Shown here piece by piece: positions 4,457 through 8,174 of a stretch of DNA of 8,746 nt (position 1 is the stretch's first letter; each line of letters opens with the position of its first letter). Origin of the DNA: Microcaldota archaeon (GTDB taxonomy: Archaea; Micrarchaeota; Micrarchaeia; Micrarchaeales; CABMGC01); NCBI GenBank assembly GCA_021835105.1, contig JAKBQS010000037.1:1-8746 (forward strand). Direction: 5' to 3'. The notes beneath the pieces were generated by a model. That model was given only the letters and a program-made list of their open reading frames with translations, ran no database searches and was not told the origin of the DNA. The position numbers and the translations under genes are program-made.

Positions 4457-5407
4457 ATGGCTAAGGAAAAAGGCATACACGGCGTTGAGGACCTGCCAGG
4501 AATAGGGCCTGCTACTGCAGATAAGCTCAAGGAGAAAGGATATGATGACATAGAGAAGATAGCTGCCGCATCGCCATACGAGATTGCGGAGCTTACAGGC
4601 ATGAGCTCTGAGGCGGCTAAGAAGGCGGTGGAGGCTGCGAGGCAGGCGACCACAGTAGACTTTACCACCGGATACGATGCGTATGAAAAGAGAAAAGCGC
4701 TTGGAAAGATTAATACAGGTTCTGAGGCTTTGGATGAGCTCCTTGGCGGAGGGGTGGAGACTAGCGCCATAACCGAAGCTTACGGAAAGTTTGCATCGGG
4801 AAAGACGCAGCTCGGCTTCCAGCTATGCGTCAACGTGCAGCTTCCTCCCGGGAAAGGAGGGCTTGGAGGAAGCATCCTCTTCCTTGATACTGAAGGAACC
4901 TTCAGGCCGGAGAGGATAGAGTCCATAGCAAAGGCCGCAGGGATGGACCCTAAGGATGCACTCAGCAGGATCTATTTTGTCAGGGCTCTCACTACTTCGC
5001 AGCAGATACTAACTATAGAGAGAGCTGACAAGTTGATAAGGGAGAATAACATAAAGCTTATTGTTGTGGATTCGATGATGGCCCTCTTCAGATCGGAGTT
5101 CATGGGAAGAGGGGCGCTTGGGGAGAGGCAGCAGAAACTTAACAGCCATATCCACAAGCTGCAGATGCTTGCGGATACATACGGTCTCGCGGTTTACATA
5201 ACGAACCAGGTTATGGACAACCCCGCAATACTTTTTGGTGACCCTACGACTCCAGTAGGCGGCAATGTAATAGCTCACGCCGCTACGACAAGGCTTTACA
5301 TGCGCAAGAGCAAGGAGGAGAAGAGGATAGTAAGGCTTGTGGACTCGCCAAATATGCCTGAGGGCGAAGCGGTAATAAAGATCACCACAAACGGCATCAA
5401 GGATTAG
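4457..5407 (+). CDS. radA: DNA repair and recombination protein RadA
   Basis: The archaeal RecA/Rad51 recombinase, which forms ATP-dependent filaments on single-stranded DNA and drives strand exchange in homologous recombination. Its 316 residues are normal length. The N-terminal helix-hairpin-helix domain spans about residues 7-62 (DLPGIGPATADKL). The polymerisation motif in the linker reads FTTG (69-72), Walker A is GKFASGKTQ (110-118), Walker B is the LIVVDSMMA strand, then come the GERQQKLNSHIHKL helix and the ATP-cap/L2 region GDPTTPVGGNVIAHAATTRL. Compared with the common GEFGSGKTQ, the Walker A loop has Lys and Ala at positions 2 and 4, but the essential G-x4-GKT is intact. It has its own promoter at 4406, and diphthine synthase follows 7 bases after the stop, so the two probably share a transcript. 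Confidence 0.98.
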   Translation: MAKEKGIHGVEDLPGIGPATADKLKEKGYDDIEKIAAASPYEIAELTGMSSEAAKKAVEAARQATTVDFTTGYDAYEKRKALGKINTGSEALDELLGGGVETSAITEAYGKFASGKTQLGFQLCVNVQLPPGKGGLGGSILFLDTEGTFRPERIESIAKAAGMDPKDALSRIYFVRALTTSQQILTIERADKLIRENNIKLIVVDSMMALFRSEFMGRGALGERQQKLNSHIHKLQMLADTYGLAVYITNQVMDNPAILFGDPTTPVGGNVIAHAATTRLYMRKSKEEKRIVRLVDSPNMPEGEAVIKITTNGIKD

Positions 5408-5414
5408 TGTTTCA

Positions 5415-6188
5415 ATGCTCGTACTGGCAGGGCTTGGGCTTGAGAAAGGGGATATCTCGCTTAGGTCCTTGGATTACCTTAAGAAATGCAAAGTAGTGTA
5501 TCTGGATTCGTATACCTCGTTTGTATCTGGCGAGTACCTCTCGTTCTTAAGCGATATGTTGGGCAAGAAAGTGTTGCCTATAGGAAGGAAGGATCTGGAG
5601 GATAATGTGTGGGATACCATAAGGGCTGCGGAGGGGAGTGATATAGGCATCGTTGTAGGAGGGGACCCGCTTATCGCCACGACCCATAAGATAATAATCT
5701 CCGAAGCGCAGAGGCATGGCATAAGGACTATTGTGCTTCATTCTTCGTCCGTATTTTCTGCCGCGATAGGGGAGAGCGGCCTTGATTTTTATAGGTTCGG
5801 GCCCACGGTTACGCTCCCTTTCTGGTCGGAGAATTACAAACCTGTCTCCTTCCTGAAGAGCATAGAGAAGAATCTTGAGAACGGGGAGCATACTCTCCTT
5901 CTGCTCGATATACGCAAGCCGGGAACCCCTATGACGCTTTCTGAAGCTGTTGAGATACTTGGCAATGCAATCAAGGCATCCGGTGGGAGCAGGCTGGGCA
6001 ATGTTAGGCTCATGGTAATGGCTGATGCCGGGAAGGAGAGTGCGGCAATGTTATCTGCCACTCTCGATGAGCTGAGTGTTTACGATGGAAGCAGGTTTTC
6101 TGGGAAGGCTTTGTGCATTATCGTCCCGGCAAAAATCTCATTCGCAGAGAAAGAGGCACTTGAAGCTGCAGGTATAAGCGGATATTGA
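5415..6188 (+). CDS. dphB: Diphthine synthase
   Basis: A SAM-dependent methyltransferase that methylates the modified histidine of translation elongation factor EF-2 on the way to diphthamide; it acts in the cytoplasm. The 257 residues match family length. Signature segments of the tetrapyrrole-methylase fold are present: GLGLEKGDIS at the N-terminus (6-15), YLDSYTS (29-35), VGGDPLIATTH (81-91), SAAIGESGLDFYRFGPTVTLPFW (115 onward) and the C-terminal half with LLLLDIR. The usual HGVS segment reads HSSS (109-112) here, a mild divergence. No strong ribosome binding site is visible in the 7-base gap after radA, suggesting translation coupled to radA. No other dph gene lies in the window. Confidence 0.96.
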   Translation: MLVLAGLGLEKGDISLRSLDYLKKCKVVYLDSYTSFVSGEYLSFLSDMLGKKVLPIGRKDLEDNVWDTIRAAEGSDIGIVVGGDPLIATTHKIIISEAQRHGIRTIVLHSSSVFSAAIGESGLDFYRFGPTVTLPFWSENYKPVSFLKSIEKNLENGEHTLLLLDIRKPGTPMTLSEAVEILGNAIKASGGSRLGNVRLMVMADAGKESAAMLSATLDELSVYDGSRFSGKALCIIVPAKISFAEKEALEAAGISGY

Positions 6189-6263
6189 ACTTTTCAGTAG
6201 CAGGCAGTATGTAGTTTTATCTTGCCATGAACTGAATCTTGTTTTTCAGCAAAAATAATGAAA

Positions 6264-6279
6264 TTGGGGTCGCCCCCAA
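6264..6279 (-). terminator. Hairpin terminator behind the histone-fold gene
   Basis: TTGGGG (6264-6269), loop TCGC, CCCCAA (6274-6279): a G/C-rich 6-base-pair stem. Read on the minus strand it is followed by TTTCATTATTTTT, as expected for the end of the histone transcript, 20 bases past its stop. It could also back up termination of dphB on the plus strand, where T-rich stretches occur at 6212-6247. Confidence 0.45.
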
Positions 6280-6293
6280 ATCCGTGCTTACTA

Positions 6294-6308
6294 GAGGTTT
6301 TACCTCTC
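6294..6308. repeat. Perfect hairpin spanning the histone stop codon
   Basis: AGAGGT (6294-6299), TTT, ACCTCT (6303-6308): a 6-base-pair inverted repeat centred on the TAA stop of the minus-strand gene. It may protect the 3' end of the message or help termination together with the G/C hairpin 15 bases further on. Confidence 0.4.
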
Positions 6309-6587
6309 TTCCCTTGCCCTCTGCCTCAATCTCGCTGCAGCTACGGCGACATGTTGTGCCTGTACCTCCTGCGCCTCCTCCCTTTCCTCTGCAACAGCTA
6401 CTGCTTCCTCAGCAAGCCTTGCGGCTTCCTCCTCTGTAACTGCGCGCAGTGCACGTGCGGCCTCGGGGCTTACTTTCCTAGCTCCTGCTGCCTTAAGAAC
6501 TTCCTGCAGACGCTCTTCATCTACAGCTTCCCTTGCGTTTCTCCTTGTCTCTCTGCGTCTTGTTCGTCTTTCCTCTTCTGCCCCCAT
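6300..6587 (-). CDS. Divergent archaeal-type histone with arginine-rich N-terminal tail
   Basis: A 95-residue protein whose second half follows the archaeal histone fold: short helix 1 LQEVLKAAG (27-35), loop 1 with ARKVS (36-40; HMf-type histones read AERVS), long helix 2 from about 41 to 68 (SPEAARALR...EEAARLAEEAVAVAEE, compare SDDARITL...IASEAIKLARHAG), loop 2, and helix 3 VQAQHVAVAAARLRQ (75-89). Unlike classical histones, loop 2 is acidic (EEREEAQE) where GRKT is normally found, and the Asp partner of the loop-2 Arg is replaced. Residues 1-26 form an extra charged tail rich in Arg (RRTRRRETRR). ATG 6587 has GGTGA 5 bases upstream. Likely role: chromatin-like DNA packaging or a heterodimer partner, though DNA binding may be altered. 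An alternative reading is a charged helical protein resembling a histone by composition. The forward open frames over this region (6239-6623) are Pro/Leu/Cys-rich shadows. Confidence 0.72.
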   Translation of the reverse strand: MGAEEERRTRRRETRRNAREAVDEERLQEVLKAAGARKVSPEAARALRAVTEEEAARLAEEAVAVAEEREEAQEVQAQHVAVAAARLRQRAREER

Positions 6588-6653
6588 ATATTCACCGCTT
6601 TGGATATTCCTAGAAAGGGTTAAAAGGGTTTACTCCAAATCAATTTTGGTTTG
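6588..6653. promoter_or_regulatory. Shared divergent promoter region, histone / NHLRC2-like gene
   Basis: Only 66 bases separate the two divergent starts. GGTGA for the histone lies on the minus strand at 6593-6597. A TTAAAA core at 6620-6625 reads CTTTTAA on the other strand. It lies about 36 bases from the histone ATG and about 30 from the plus-strand ATG 6654, with the purine-rich AGAAAGG upstream for the plus direction. It can therefore serve as TATA box in both directions, giving a short leader for the histone and a nearly leaderless message for the other gene. Confidence 0.45.
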
Positions 6654-8174
6654 ATGCTTGGGGGATTTGTCGGGAGAATGTCACCTGCTTTTCCAGATGG
6701 CACAGAATTCGTTAACTTCAGCGGAAATCTCACAATGAATGCCCTGCGCGGAAGGATAGTGATTCTTGATTTCTGGACCTATTGCTGCATAAACTGCATG
6801 CACATGGCCCCAATATTTAGGAAGTTAGAGGATAGACACAGGGATGGCAGCGTTCTCATCATAGGAATACATTCGGCAAAGTTTGACGGAGAGAATGATG
6901 AAGCGAATGTAGCAGGAGCTATAGCAAGGTATGGAATCTCCCATCCTGTAGTGCTTGATAAGGATCGCAAGATATGGAAATCGTACTCTATCAACGCATG
7001 GCCTACTGTAATTATCATTGGCCCGGACGGAATTGTAAGGTATAGAAGAGCAGGTGAACAGTCGGAATCGCAGCTTGAAGAAGAAATTAGGAAGATAGAG
7101 AGGAGGTATAGAAAGAGTACTGCACTGGGAATGACATTCCGCAAGATAAATTGGGTGAGGAAGGATACGGTAAGGGATGCGGGTTCCTTCCTCAGGTTTC
7201 CTTCGAAAATCTCTTTCAGCAAAGGCTCAGAAGGAGTATTTGCGTTGAGCGATTCTGGAAATAGCCGCATCATGATAGGGCGCATAGAAGGGGATAAGGC
7301 AAGCTTATCTGACATTGTAGGAAACGGAAGGTTTAATGGAAAGCGGATGGAAGGCGCGTCTTTTTCCAAACCGCAGGGGCTCTGCTGGCTGCCTAATGGA
7401 AAGCTTCTTGTCGCAGATACCGATAACCACAGCTTAAAGATTGTATCAATCGGCCGCAAAAAGGCCATTAAGACTGTCGCAGGGACGGGAAAGAAAGGAG
7501 GATACGGCAGATTTGGAAGAAAAATGAGAAGCCTTGAGACTGATATTAATTCCCCATGGGATGTTGCCTTCAGCGTAAGGGAAGGTTTGGCTTTCATAGC
7601 CATGGCAGGGCTCCACCAGGTATGGACCCTGGACCTTGACAGCGGCTACCTGGAGGTCTTTGCAGGAAACGGATACGAGAATCTCATTGATGACAGGAGA
7701 AGCAGCGCTGAATTTGCGCAGCCTAGCGGAATCTTCACACATGGGAATATGGTGTATACTGCAGATAGCGAGTCTTCTTCGATAAGAAGCATCCCGCTTG
7801 ATCTTGACTTCGTGAGCACCATGATTGGCAGGGGACTTTTCGTTTACGGAGATGAAACCGGATCGCTGCCTGATGCGCTGCTGCAGCACCCCATGGGGCT
7901 TTGCAGGGAGGGTAGGAGGATATACGTTGCGGATACCTATAACAATGCAATAAAAGCTATCGATGAGAGGGGAAAGGAAGTGGTTAGATTGGTAGGAAAA
8001 CCGCATGCAAGATCCGAATGCAGGTTTGGAGATAAGGAATGCGATGCGTTAGGGCTTTACGAGCCTAACGACGTCAAATATTATGGCGGTCAGCTATATA
8101 TAACAGATACAAACAACCATATGCTTAGGGCTTTTGACCTTCGCAGGAAGGTGCTGAAGACCGTAATCAAGTAG
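6654..8174 (+). CDS. NHLRC2-like protein: thioredoxin-like domain plus six-bladed NHL propeller
   Basis: A 506-residue two-domain protein. Residues about 10-150 are a TlpA/thioredoxin-like fold with the redox-type motif WTYCCINC (C44, C45, C48) and the cis-proline segment AWPT. This double-Cys CCxxC form is typical of the NHLRC2 family. From about residue 175 follow six NHL-type blades, each with a D/A-x-x-N/H-x-x-(I/L/V) pattern: ALSDSGNSRIM, LVADTDNHSLK, FIAMAGLHQVW, YTADSESSSIR, YVADTYNNAIK and YITDTNNHMLR. There is no signal peptide or membrane segment, so it is probably cytoplasmic. Function in the family is poorly defined; a thiol-redox enzyme or scaffold is inferred. ATG 6654 suits the promoter at 6620; ATG 6678 (MSPAFPDG) lies closer to the start seen in relatives, but its GGGAG is too close at 1 base. 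The next gene begins 8 bases after the stop. Confidence 0.93.
   Translation: MLGGFVGRMSPAFPDGTEFVNFSGNLTMNALRGRIVILDFWTYCCINCMHMAPIFRKLEDRHRDGSVLIIGIHSAKFDGENDEANVAGAIARYGISHPVVLDKDRKIWKSYSINAWPTVIIIGPDGIVRYRRAGEQSESQLEEEIRKIERRYRKSTALGMTFRKINWVRKDTVRDAGSFLRFPSKISFSKGSEGVFALSDSGNSRIMIGRIEGDKASLSDIVGNGRFNGKRMEGASFSKPQGLCWLPNGKLLVADTDNHSLKIVSIGRKKAIKTVAGTGKKGGYGRFGRKMRSLETDINSPWDVAFSVREGLAFIAMAGLHQVWTLDLDSGYLEVFAGNGYENLIDDRRSSAEFAQPSGIFTHGNMVYTADSESSSIRSIPLDLDFVSTMIGRGLFVYGDETGSLPDALLQHPMGLCREGRRIYVADTYNNAIKAIDERGKEVVRLVGKPHARSECRFGDKECDALGLYEPNDVKYYGGQLYITDTNNHMLRAFDLRRKVLKTVIK

Follow-up and report, generated by a model that had tools for sequence, protein, structure and literature searches.

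What does an archaeon do with a histone-like protein whose DNA-contacting loop is acidic? The question is raised by an open reading frame (ORF) on the minus strand of the 8,746-nucleotide stretch of a Micrarchaeota genome analysed here (the window), at positions 6300..6587 including the stop codon. As read from the sequence, the ORF starts with ATG and codes for a protein of 95 amino acids (P0001). Sequence comparisons and a structural model indicate that this protein is a divergent member of the histone-fold superfamily and not a canonical archaeal histone; it probably caps or modifies chromatin instead of wrapping DNA as histones usually do.

A gene under strong purifying selection

We compared the gene with its copy in a sister genome (G050), which codes for a 97% identical protein. 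The two copies differed at 31 of 288 bases, distributed as 2, 3 and 26 over the first, second and third codon positions, and the NG86 nonsynonymous (dN) and synonymous (dS) rates were 0.014 and 0.58. The corresponding dN/dS, from this single genome pair, is 0.024; for the neighbouring genes in the same pair it is 0.011 (radA), 0.026 (chaperonin), 0.12 (a gene of the tetrapyrrole-methylase family, called dphB here), 0.17 (methyltransferase) and 0.19 (NHL). Because the differences concentrate at third positions and dN/dS is 0.024, the 95-residue minus-strand ORF is a real gene under strong constraint. The codon and conservation check that the preliminary description of this DNA had proposed for the forward-strand frame was thus decided in favour of the minus frame.

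Evidence for a histone fold

The preliminary description had proposed a histone-fold protein and a search of histone-fold families by hidden Markov models. This search gave 27.3 bits (E 3.7e-6) with NF043032 ‘archaea_histone’ and 18.1 bits with PF00808, both below the curated cut-offs of 50 and 21.4, respectively, and the match with HMfA had an E-value of 0.007. With a canonical-histone profile of nine Micrarchaeota sequences the window protein scored 25.5 bits, a value reached by none of 5000 shuffled sequences (best 14.1). The other 19 members of the family scored lower with the same profile, and ten of them, including P0002, were reached by none of 500 shuffles; the member from genome G093 exceeded the PF00808 cut-off (23.8 and 23.4 bits). 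A search of the PDB with the family profile returned HMfA (E 1.6e-4), HPhA, an Asgard histone and HMfB as first matches. The profile-profile comparison of the family with canonical histones (hhalign) gave a probability of 78% over 43 columns, ending before loop 2.

AlphaFold2 run with the family alignment produced a model with a predicted local distance difference test score (pLDDT) of 94 and a predicted template modelling score (pTM) of 0.78. This model superposed on HMfB at about 1 Å (67 residues at 1.0 Å, 25% identity), and the root mean square deviation (rmsd) of HMfA and HMfB to it was 1.0 to 1.2; Foldseek E-values were weak, with 0.078 as the best. Fold matches spanning the front helix (TAFII28, H3-like chains) had an rmsd of at least 3.6 and were not used as proof. 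The structure prediction had two outcomes: the order α1-loop 1-long α2-loop 2-α3 was present in the alignment-based model and absent from the helical hairpin obtained without alignment.

In the alignment-based model, an Arg-rich N-terminal helix, αN (residues 2-21; 6525..6584, minus strand like all the segments that follow), precedes α1 (residues 24-33; 6489..6518), which superposes on HMfB. Loop 1 (residues 34-40, AGARKVS; 6468..6488), the long central helix α2 (residues 41-68; 6384..6467), the acidic end of helix 2 with loop 2 (residues 67-74, EEREEAQE; 6366..6389) and α3 (residues 77-94; 6306..6359) complete the predicted fold. The two loop motifs, and the missing helix-3 Asp, replaced by His79, were found as previously described. 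Loop 2 is one residue longer in the window protein, an extra residue present in 3/20 rows, and the predicted α3 is longer than the 10 residues given for nucleosomal histones (PMC11390915; this and the other papers cited here are drawn on in excerpt).

The front helix was predicted with a pLDDT of 87 and 93 for the block 2-21 with alignment, and the segment was helical also without alignment, which speaks against a flexible, eukaryote-like tail. Among residues 1-21 there are eight Arg against five Glu, a net charge of +3, in a protein with an isoelectric point of 6.0. All rows of the 20-row family alignment A3 carry a net positive charge in the part matching residues 1-21; in the part matching residues 22-86 the charge is net negative in 19 rows and zero in one. 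Arg10 (own numbering) is invariant (27/27 rows of the larger alignment A5, see below). The charged N-terminal stretch thus stood as a basic extension, but with 17 charged residues among the first 26 (9 Arg and 8 Asp/Glu) and not 26; the reported run of five to six Arg turned out to be three residues at its longest unbroken, with five Arg lying within residues 7-12.

Conservation of the DNA-contacting and dimer-dimer residues

Residue conservation was counted (HMfB numbering) in A5, whose 27 rows are the window protein, 23 database clusters and three genome copies, some being near copies of each other. Gly16, with its equivalent in loop 1, and Ala24 were found in 27/27 rows, and K13 was kept or replaced by Arg in 26/27. 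All rows have the AAG of loop 1, and Ala77, where helix 3 begins, was kept in 25/27. The canonical DNA contacts, as the preliminary description had it, are almost gone: R10 is kept in one row (E29 in the window protein), R19 in three (K38) and R52 in one, with Glu in 24 rows and Asp and Gln in one each (E71 in the window protein). T54 was left uncounted because a few rows have one inserted residue.

The dimer-dimer interface of archaeal histones is formed by L46, H49, D59 and L62, and R52-D59 is a fold-stabilising bridge (PMC6136690). These four sites correspond to V65, E68, H79 and V82 of P0001, where V65 and V82 are still hydrophobic. L46 is kept in no row; nor is H49 (Asp 16, Glu 10, Ala 1) or D59 (Ser 17, Ala 4, Thr 3, His 2, Cys 1). 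The R-D clamp is thus lost family-wide, and the acidic loop 2 end and the lost helix-3 Asp are family features. The acidic loop 2 described earlier holds in this respect across the family, except that at least 90% of the A5 rows have Arg at position 50, so that the family loop 2 is not purely acidic. In a control set of 33 other Micrarchaeota histones, 32 matched a loop 2 pattern forcing R52, and all 32 had D59 and none an acidic residue 49; these histones were picked via PF00808, which favours canonical types. In the survey of PMC13260811, as far as excerpted, almost every archaeal histone has RKT, and conservation of the R-D clamp is strong, the position of its Asp being invariable; unlike the histones surveyed there, the window protein has neither.

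A candidate capstone and its alternatives

The explanation that we favour, with a probability of roughly 0.48, is that of a Micrarchaeota histone variant which dimerises by its histone core, has lost the DNA-grip and tetramer contacts, and acts as a capstone that ends or loosens the canonical filament. The variant would dimerise through the usual core. The contacts that grip DNA (R10, R19, R52/K53 and the R52-D59 clamp) have been lost, and so have L46, H49 and D59, through which dimers assemble into tetramers. Given the acidic residue 49, the absence of L46 and D59 and the near absence of R10, R19 and R52, a dimer is expected to lack both extension and the usual hold on DNA. Built into a chain of canonical histones, either in a heterodimer or as the dimer at its end, the variant would stop or loosen the filament. 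What basic surface remains would be provided by the Arg-rich front helix, which would touch DNA or acidic faces of its neighbours and may take over part of the DNA contact. An acidic residue 49 has been predicted to make a capstone halting filament growth (PMC7776873), and the negatively charged or hydrophobic residue expected of capstones at this position is Asp or Glu in 26/27 rows and Ala in one. Of the earlier proposals, that of a non-canonical partner subunit agrees best with the data, since residues 46, 49 and 59 of the dimer-dimer interface are changed as well.

Several observations weigh against this explanation. We infer capping from single residues, which is a limitation, and simulated Methanosphaera capstone dimers remain on DNA whereas the window protein may not. 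Dimer-core residues are changed too, L28 being kept in 8/27 rows and L32 in 0/27, mostly in favour of smaller residues. Nine of the 19 other members were equalled by shuffles in the profile test (500 each), eight of them by 1 to 5 and P0005 by 15, and PF00808 at E 0.01 detected only 3 of the 20 members (hmmscan). AlphaFold2 without alignment gave a two-helix hairpin (H3-34, H41-94; pTM 0.45), so that the histone-fold call rests on the alignment. The family is scarce, with 8 carriers among 301 Micrarchaeota genomes (E below 1e-25; next match 8e-11), all 8 of which also contributed to the search profile, and no conserved operon partner was found for it.

Rather unlikely, in our view, is a new DNA-binding mode, in which a homodimer clamps or bridges DNA by its two Arg-rich front helices, the acidic loops leaving the usual face unoccupied. 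The separate helix 2-21 before α1, its positive charge in 20/20 rows and the invariant Arg10 argue for it, and chains taken by numbering as histone H3 match across the front helix, loosely (rmsd of about 4 to 6). The five Glu among residues 1-21 argue against it, since they leave a net charge of just +3, or of +1 in P0004, P0007, P0019 and P0021.

It is improbable that the protein is a non-chromatin module for protein-protein contacts, similar to TAFs or NC2 and contacting TBP, RNA polymerase or another partner. TAFII28 (TAF11), a subunit of the eukaryotic TFIID whose histone fold has additional helices, gave a weak sequence match and the same fold Z as HMfB. However, its sequence match is weaker than that of HMf and its superposition longer but much looser (86 residues at 3.6 Å), HMfA and HMfB fitting far tighter. 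The invariant Gly16 suits stacked histone filaments, and no common neighbour gene pointed to the transcription machinery.

Slightly more doubtful is a rearrangement of loop charges (Arg/Lys in loop 1, Glu in loop 2) in which a cross-dimer bridge replaces the R-D clamp. It would create a self-selecting orthogonal dimer, that is, a second histone system that meets DNA only via paired front helices. At the site of Arg37 in loop 1, 14 of the 19 other A3 rows have Arg and 3 have Lys, and the site of E71 in loop 2 is Glu in 24/27.

We regard it as very unlikely that there is no histone fold at all, and that the Ala/Glu/Arg make-up of a charged helical hairpin or coiled coil mimics histone helices. 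The single-sequence hairpin, the low-complexity composition, the weak Pfam score and the best Foldseek E-value of 0.078 go in this direction. Against it stand the shuffling result (0/5000), the invariant AAG, Ala77, the placement of the one-residue indel in loop 2 and the close fit of the alignment-based model to HMfB. Finally, the overlapping forward-strand ORF 6258-6623, open over 121 codons, in G050 too, was refuted as the real gene by the codon pattern (26/31 differences at minus-frame third positions), and two forward ORFs tested had no Pfam match at E 0.01.

Family members and other histones of the host genomes

A phmmer search with the window protein found one relative in a protein database of 5.8 billion. 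Two more members (E 5e-5 or better) came from 35 relative genomes, and the rest from 148 relatives of genome G027. Profile searches gave at least 23 database clusters besides the window protein, a lower bound because scoring was limited to the candidates with most words in common; none had precomputed Pfam domains. The few database names of the family were ‘hypothetical’, ‘uncharacterised’ and once ‘acylphosphatase’, and P0018 is named as from a Micrarchaeales archaeon. The best matches of the window's RadA, at 78% identity, lie in metagenome-assembled genomes labelled Micrarchaeota or Marsarchaeota, and on these two grounds the host is taken to be a Micrarchaeota archaeon. A viral origin was rejected: a scan of viral contigs with A3 gave 600 pattern matches, none of them a relative.

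The canonical histone that the preliminary description had suggested looking for is present in the sister genome G050, which encodes a tail-less 64-residue histone (L150) with KRKT and Asp59, together with the C-terminally tailed L158 and the divergent L166. All eight family genomes have another histone above the PF00808 cut-off, in some of them not of the classical KRKT type. The host archaeon thus probably carries the variant alongside ordinary histones. L158 (FSLYEMEQF...) also exceeds the Pfam cut-off for CENP-T_C (36.9 versus 28.1 bits) in addition to that for PF00808.

We found also a second, remoter histone-like family of Micrarchaeota (L132, L136, L139, L142, L144, L149 and others), with a basic loop 2. 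Many of its members end in GAAALIIAAEKDRW-like helices, and one typical member had no Pfam match at E 1. In a tree, the window family and the remote ‘GAAALIIAAEKDRW’ rows were jointly split from 25 other histones in 99/100 replicates. Taken by itself, the window family requires 2 changes, and only 34% of the bootstrap trees (few columns) show it as one-sided, so that the tree does not show the family to have arisen once, separately from the remote ‘GAAALIIAAEKDRW’ group.

The locus

Upstream of the gene, GGTGA at 6592..6596 (minus strand), four bases before the ATG and identical in G050, is presumably a Shine-Dalgarno sequence. It belongs to a 59-base block (6538-6596), covering also the start codon and the first 16 codons, which is identical in the window and G050, synonymous sites included. 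The probability of zero changed codons in the first 16 by chance is about 0.001 for this pair, and the block may be a translation-start or regulatory element. In the intergenic region 6588-6665, between the gene and a divergent thioredoxin-NHL gene, 72/78 upstream bases are identical in G050. Beyond the stop codon, a short terminator-like hairpin at 6263..6281 (minus strand) is nearly unchanged in G050, with weak folding support (z -1.74; 10/200 shuffles fold equally well). No Rfam family reached its gathering score anywhere in the window.

The neighbours identified by Pfam were a chaperonin, a GCS2 ligase, an amidohydrolase, a methyltransferase, RadA/Rad51, the tetrapyrrole-methylase family protein, the thioredoxin-NHL protein and a SIS-domain protein. 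This gene order is found also in G050, which, by mechanically called ORFs, was alone among the 8 genome copies in having genes in common with the window neighbourhood. The seven other family loci had no neighbour family in common with the window or each other (E 1e-5), in a rough test where an opposite-strand ORF displaced the histone ORF in the window and in four loci, and where three loci spanned only 3.5 to 10.6 kb. None of 80 radA loci held a clear relative of the histone-fold protein (best ORF match E 0.62; many loci end at contig ends). In 63 of these 80 loci, a dphB match lay within about 1 kb after radA, as in the window (4457-6188), and some others end at contig ends.

Comparison with known histones

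The window protein shares the histone fold, the loop 1 glycine and part of the hydrophobic core with the nucleosomal HMfA and HMfB. It lacks their R10, R19, RKT, D59, H49 and L46, and has in addition the N-terminal helix and a longer α3. The capstone histones of Methanobacteriales (Msp_0383; PMC7776873) have the acidic residue 49 and the coexistence with ordinary histones in common with the family. The family probably differs from them in lacking the R-D clamp and RKT and in having a front helix, and it belongs to another phylum. A basic N-terminal extension is found also in the tailed histones of Asgard, Huberarchaea and Bathyarchaeota (PMC6136690, PMC11390915); the Asgard tails are described there as long and disordered, whereas the present extension is Arg-rich, Lys-free and predicted to be helical. 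Acidic singlet histones of cluster 2 (PMC13260811) share the near-neutral to acidic isoelectric point and the single fold. In the α3 histones (face-to-face and kin), α3 has 3-4 residues, against residues 77-94 predicted here. In the coiled-coil histones, a long C-terminal helix makes up a tetramer coiled coil; the main extension of the window protein is N-terminal, and its α3 is longer than canonical.

Prokaryotic histones have been sorted into 17 groups (PMC11390915), and in none of them, as described in the excerpt, does an acidic loop 2 occur together with a front helix. The family was not found in the open-licence PMC literature, where it could sit unnamed in a supplementary list. Because RKT and the clamp Asp are absent, and because the groups so described lack this combination, we place the window protein in the histone-fold superfamily as a new variant, outside the canonical archaeal histones. 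Its family has next to no annotation. Counting histones by PF00808 can miss members, as the 3/20 detected at E 0.01 illustrate. The loop 1-loop 2 residues have been called a universal histone signature (PMC13260811). By inverting this signature while retaining the fold and the stacking glycine, a conserved family would uncouple ‘DNA wrapping by loops’ from the ‘histone fold’, and it would make capstone ideas testable in Micrarchaeota.
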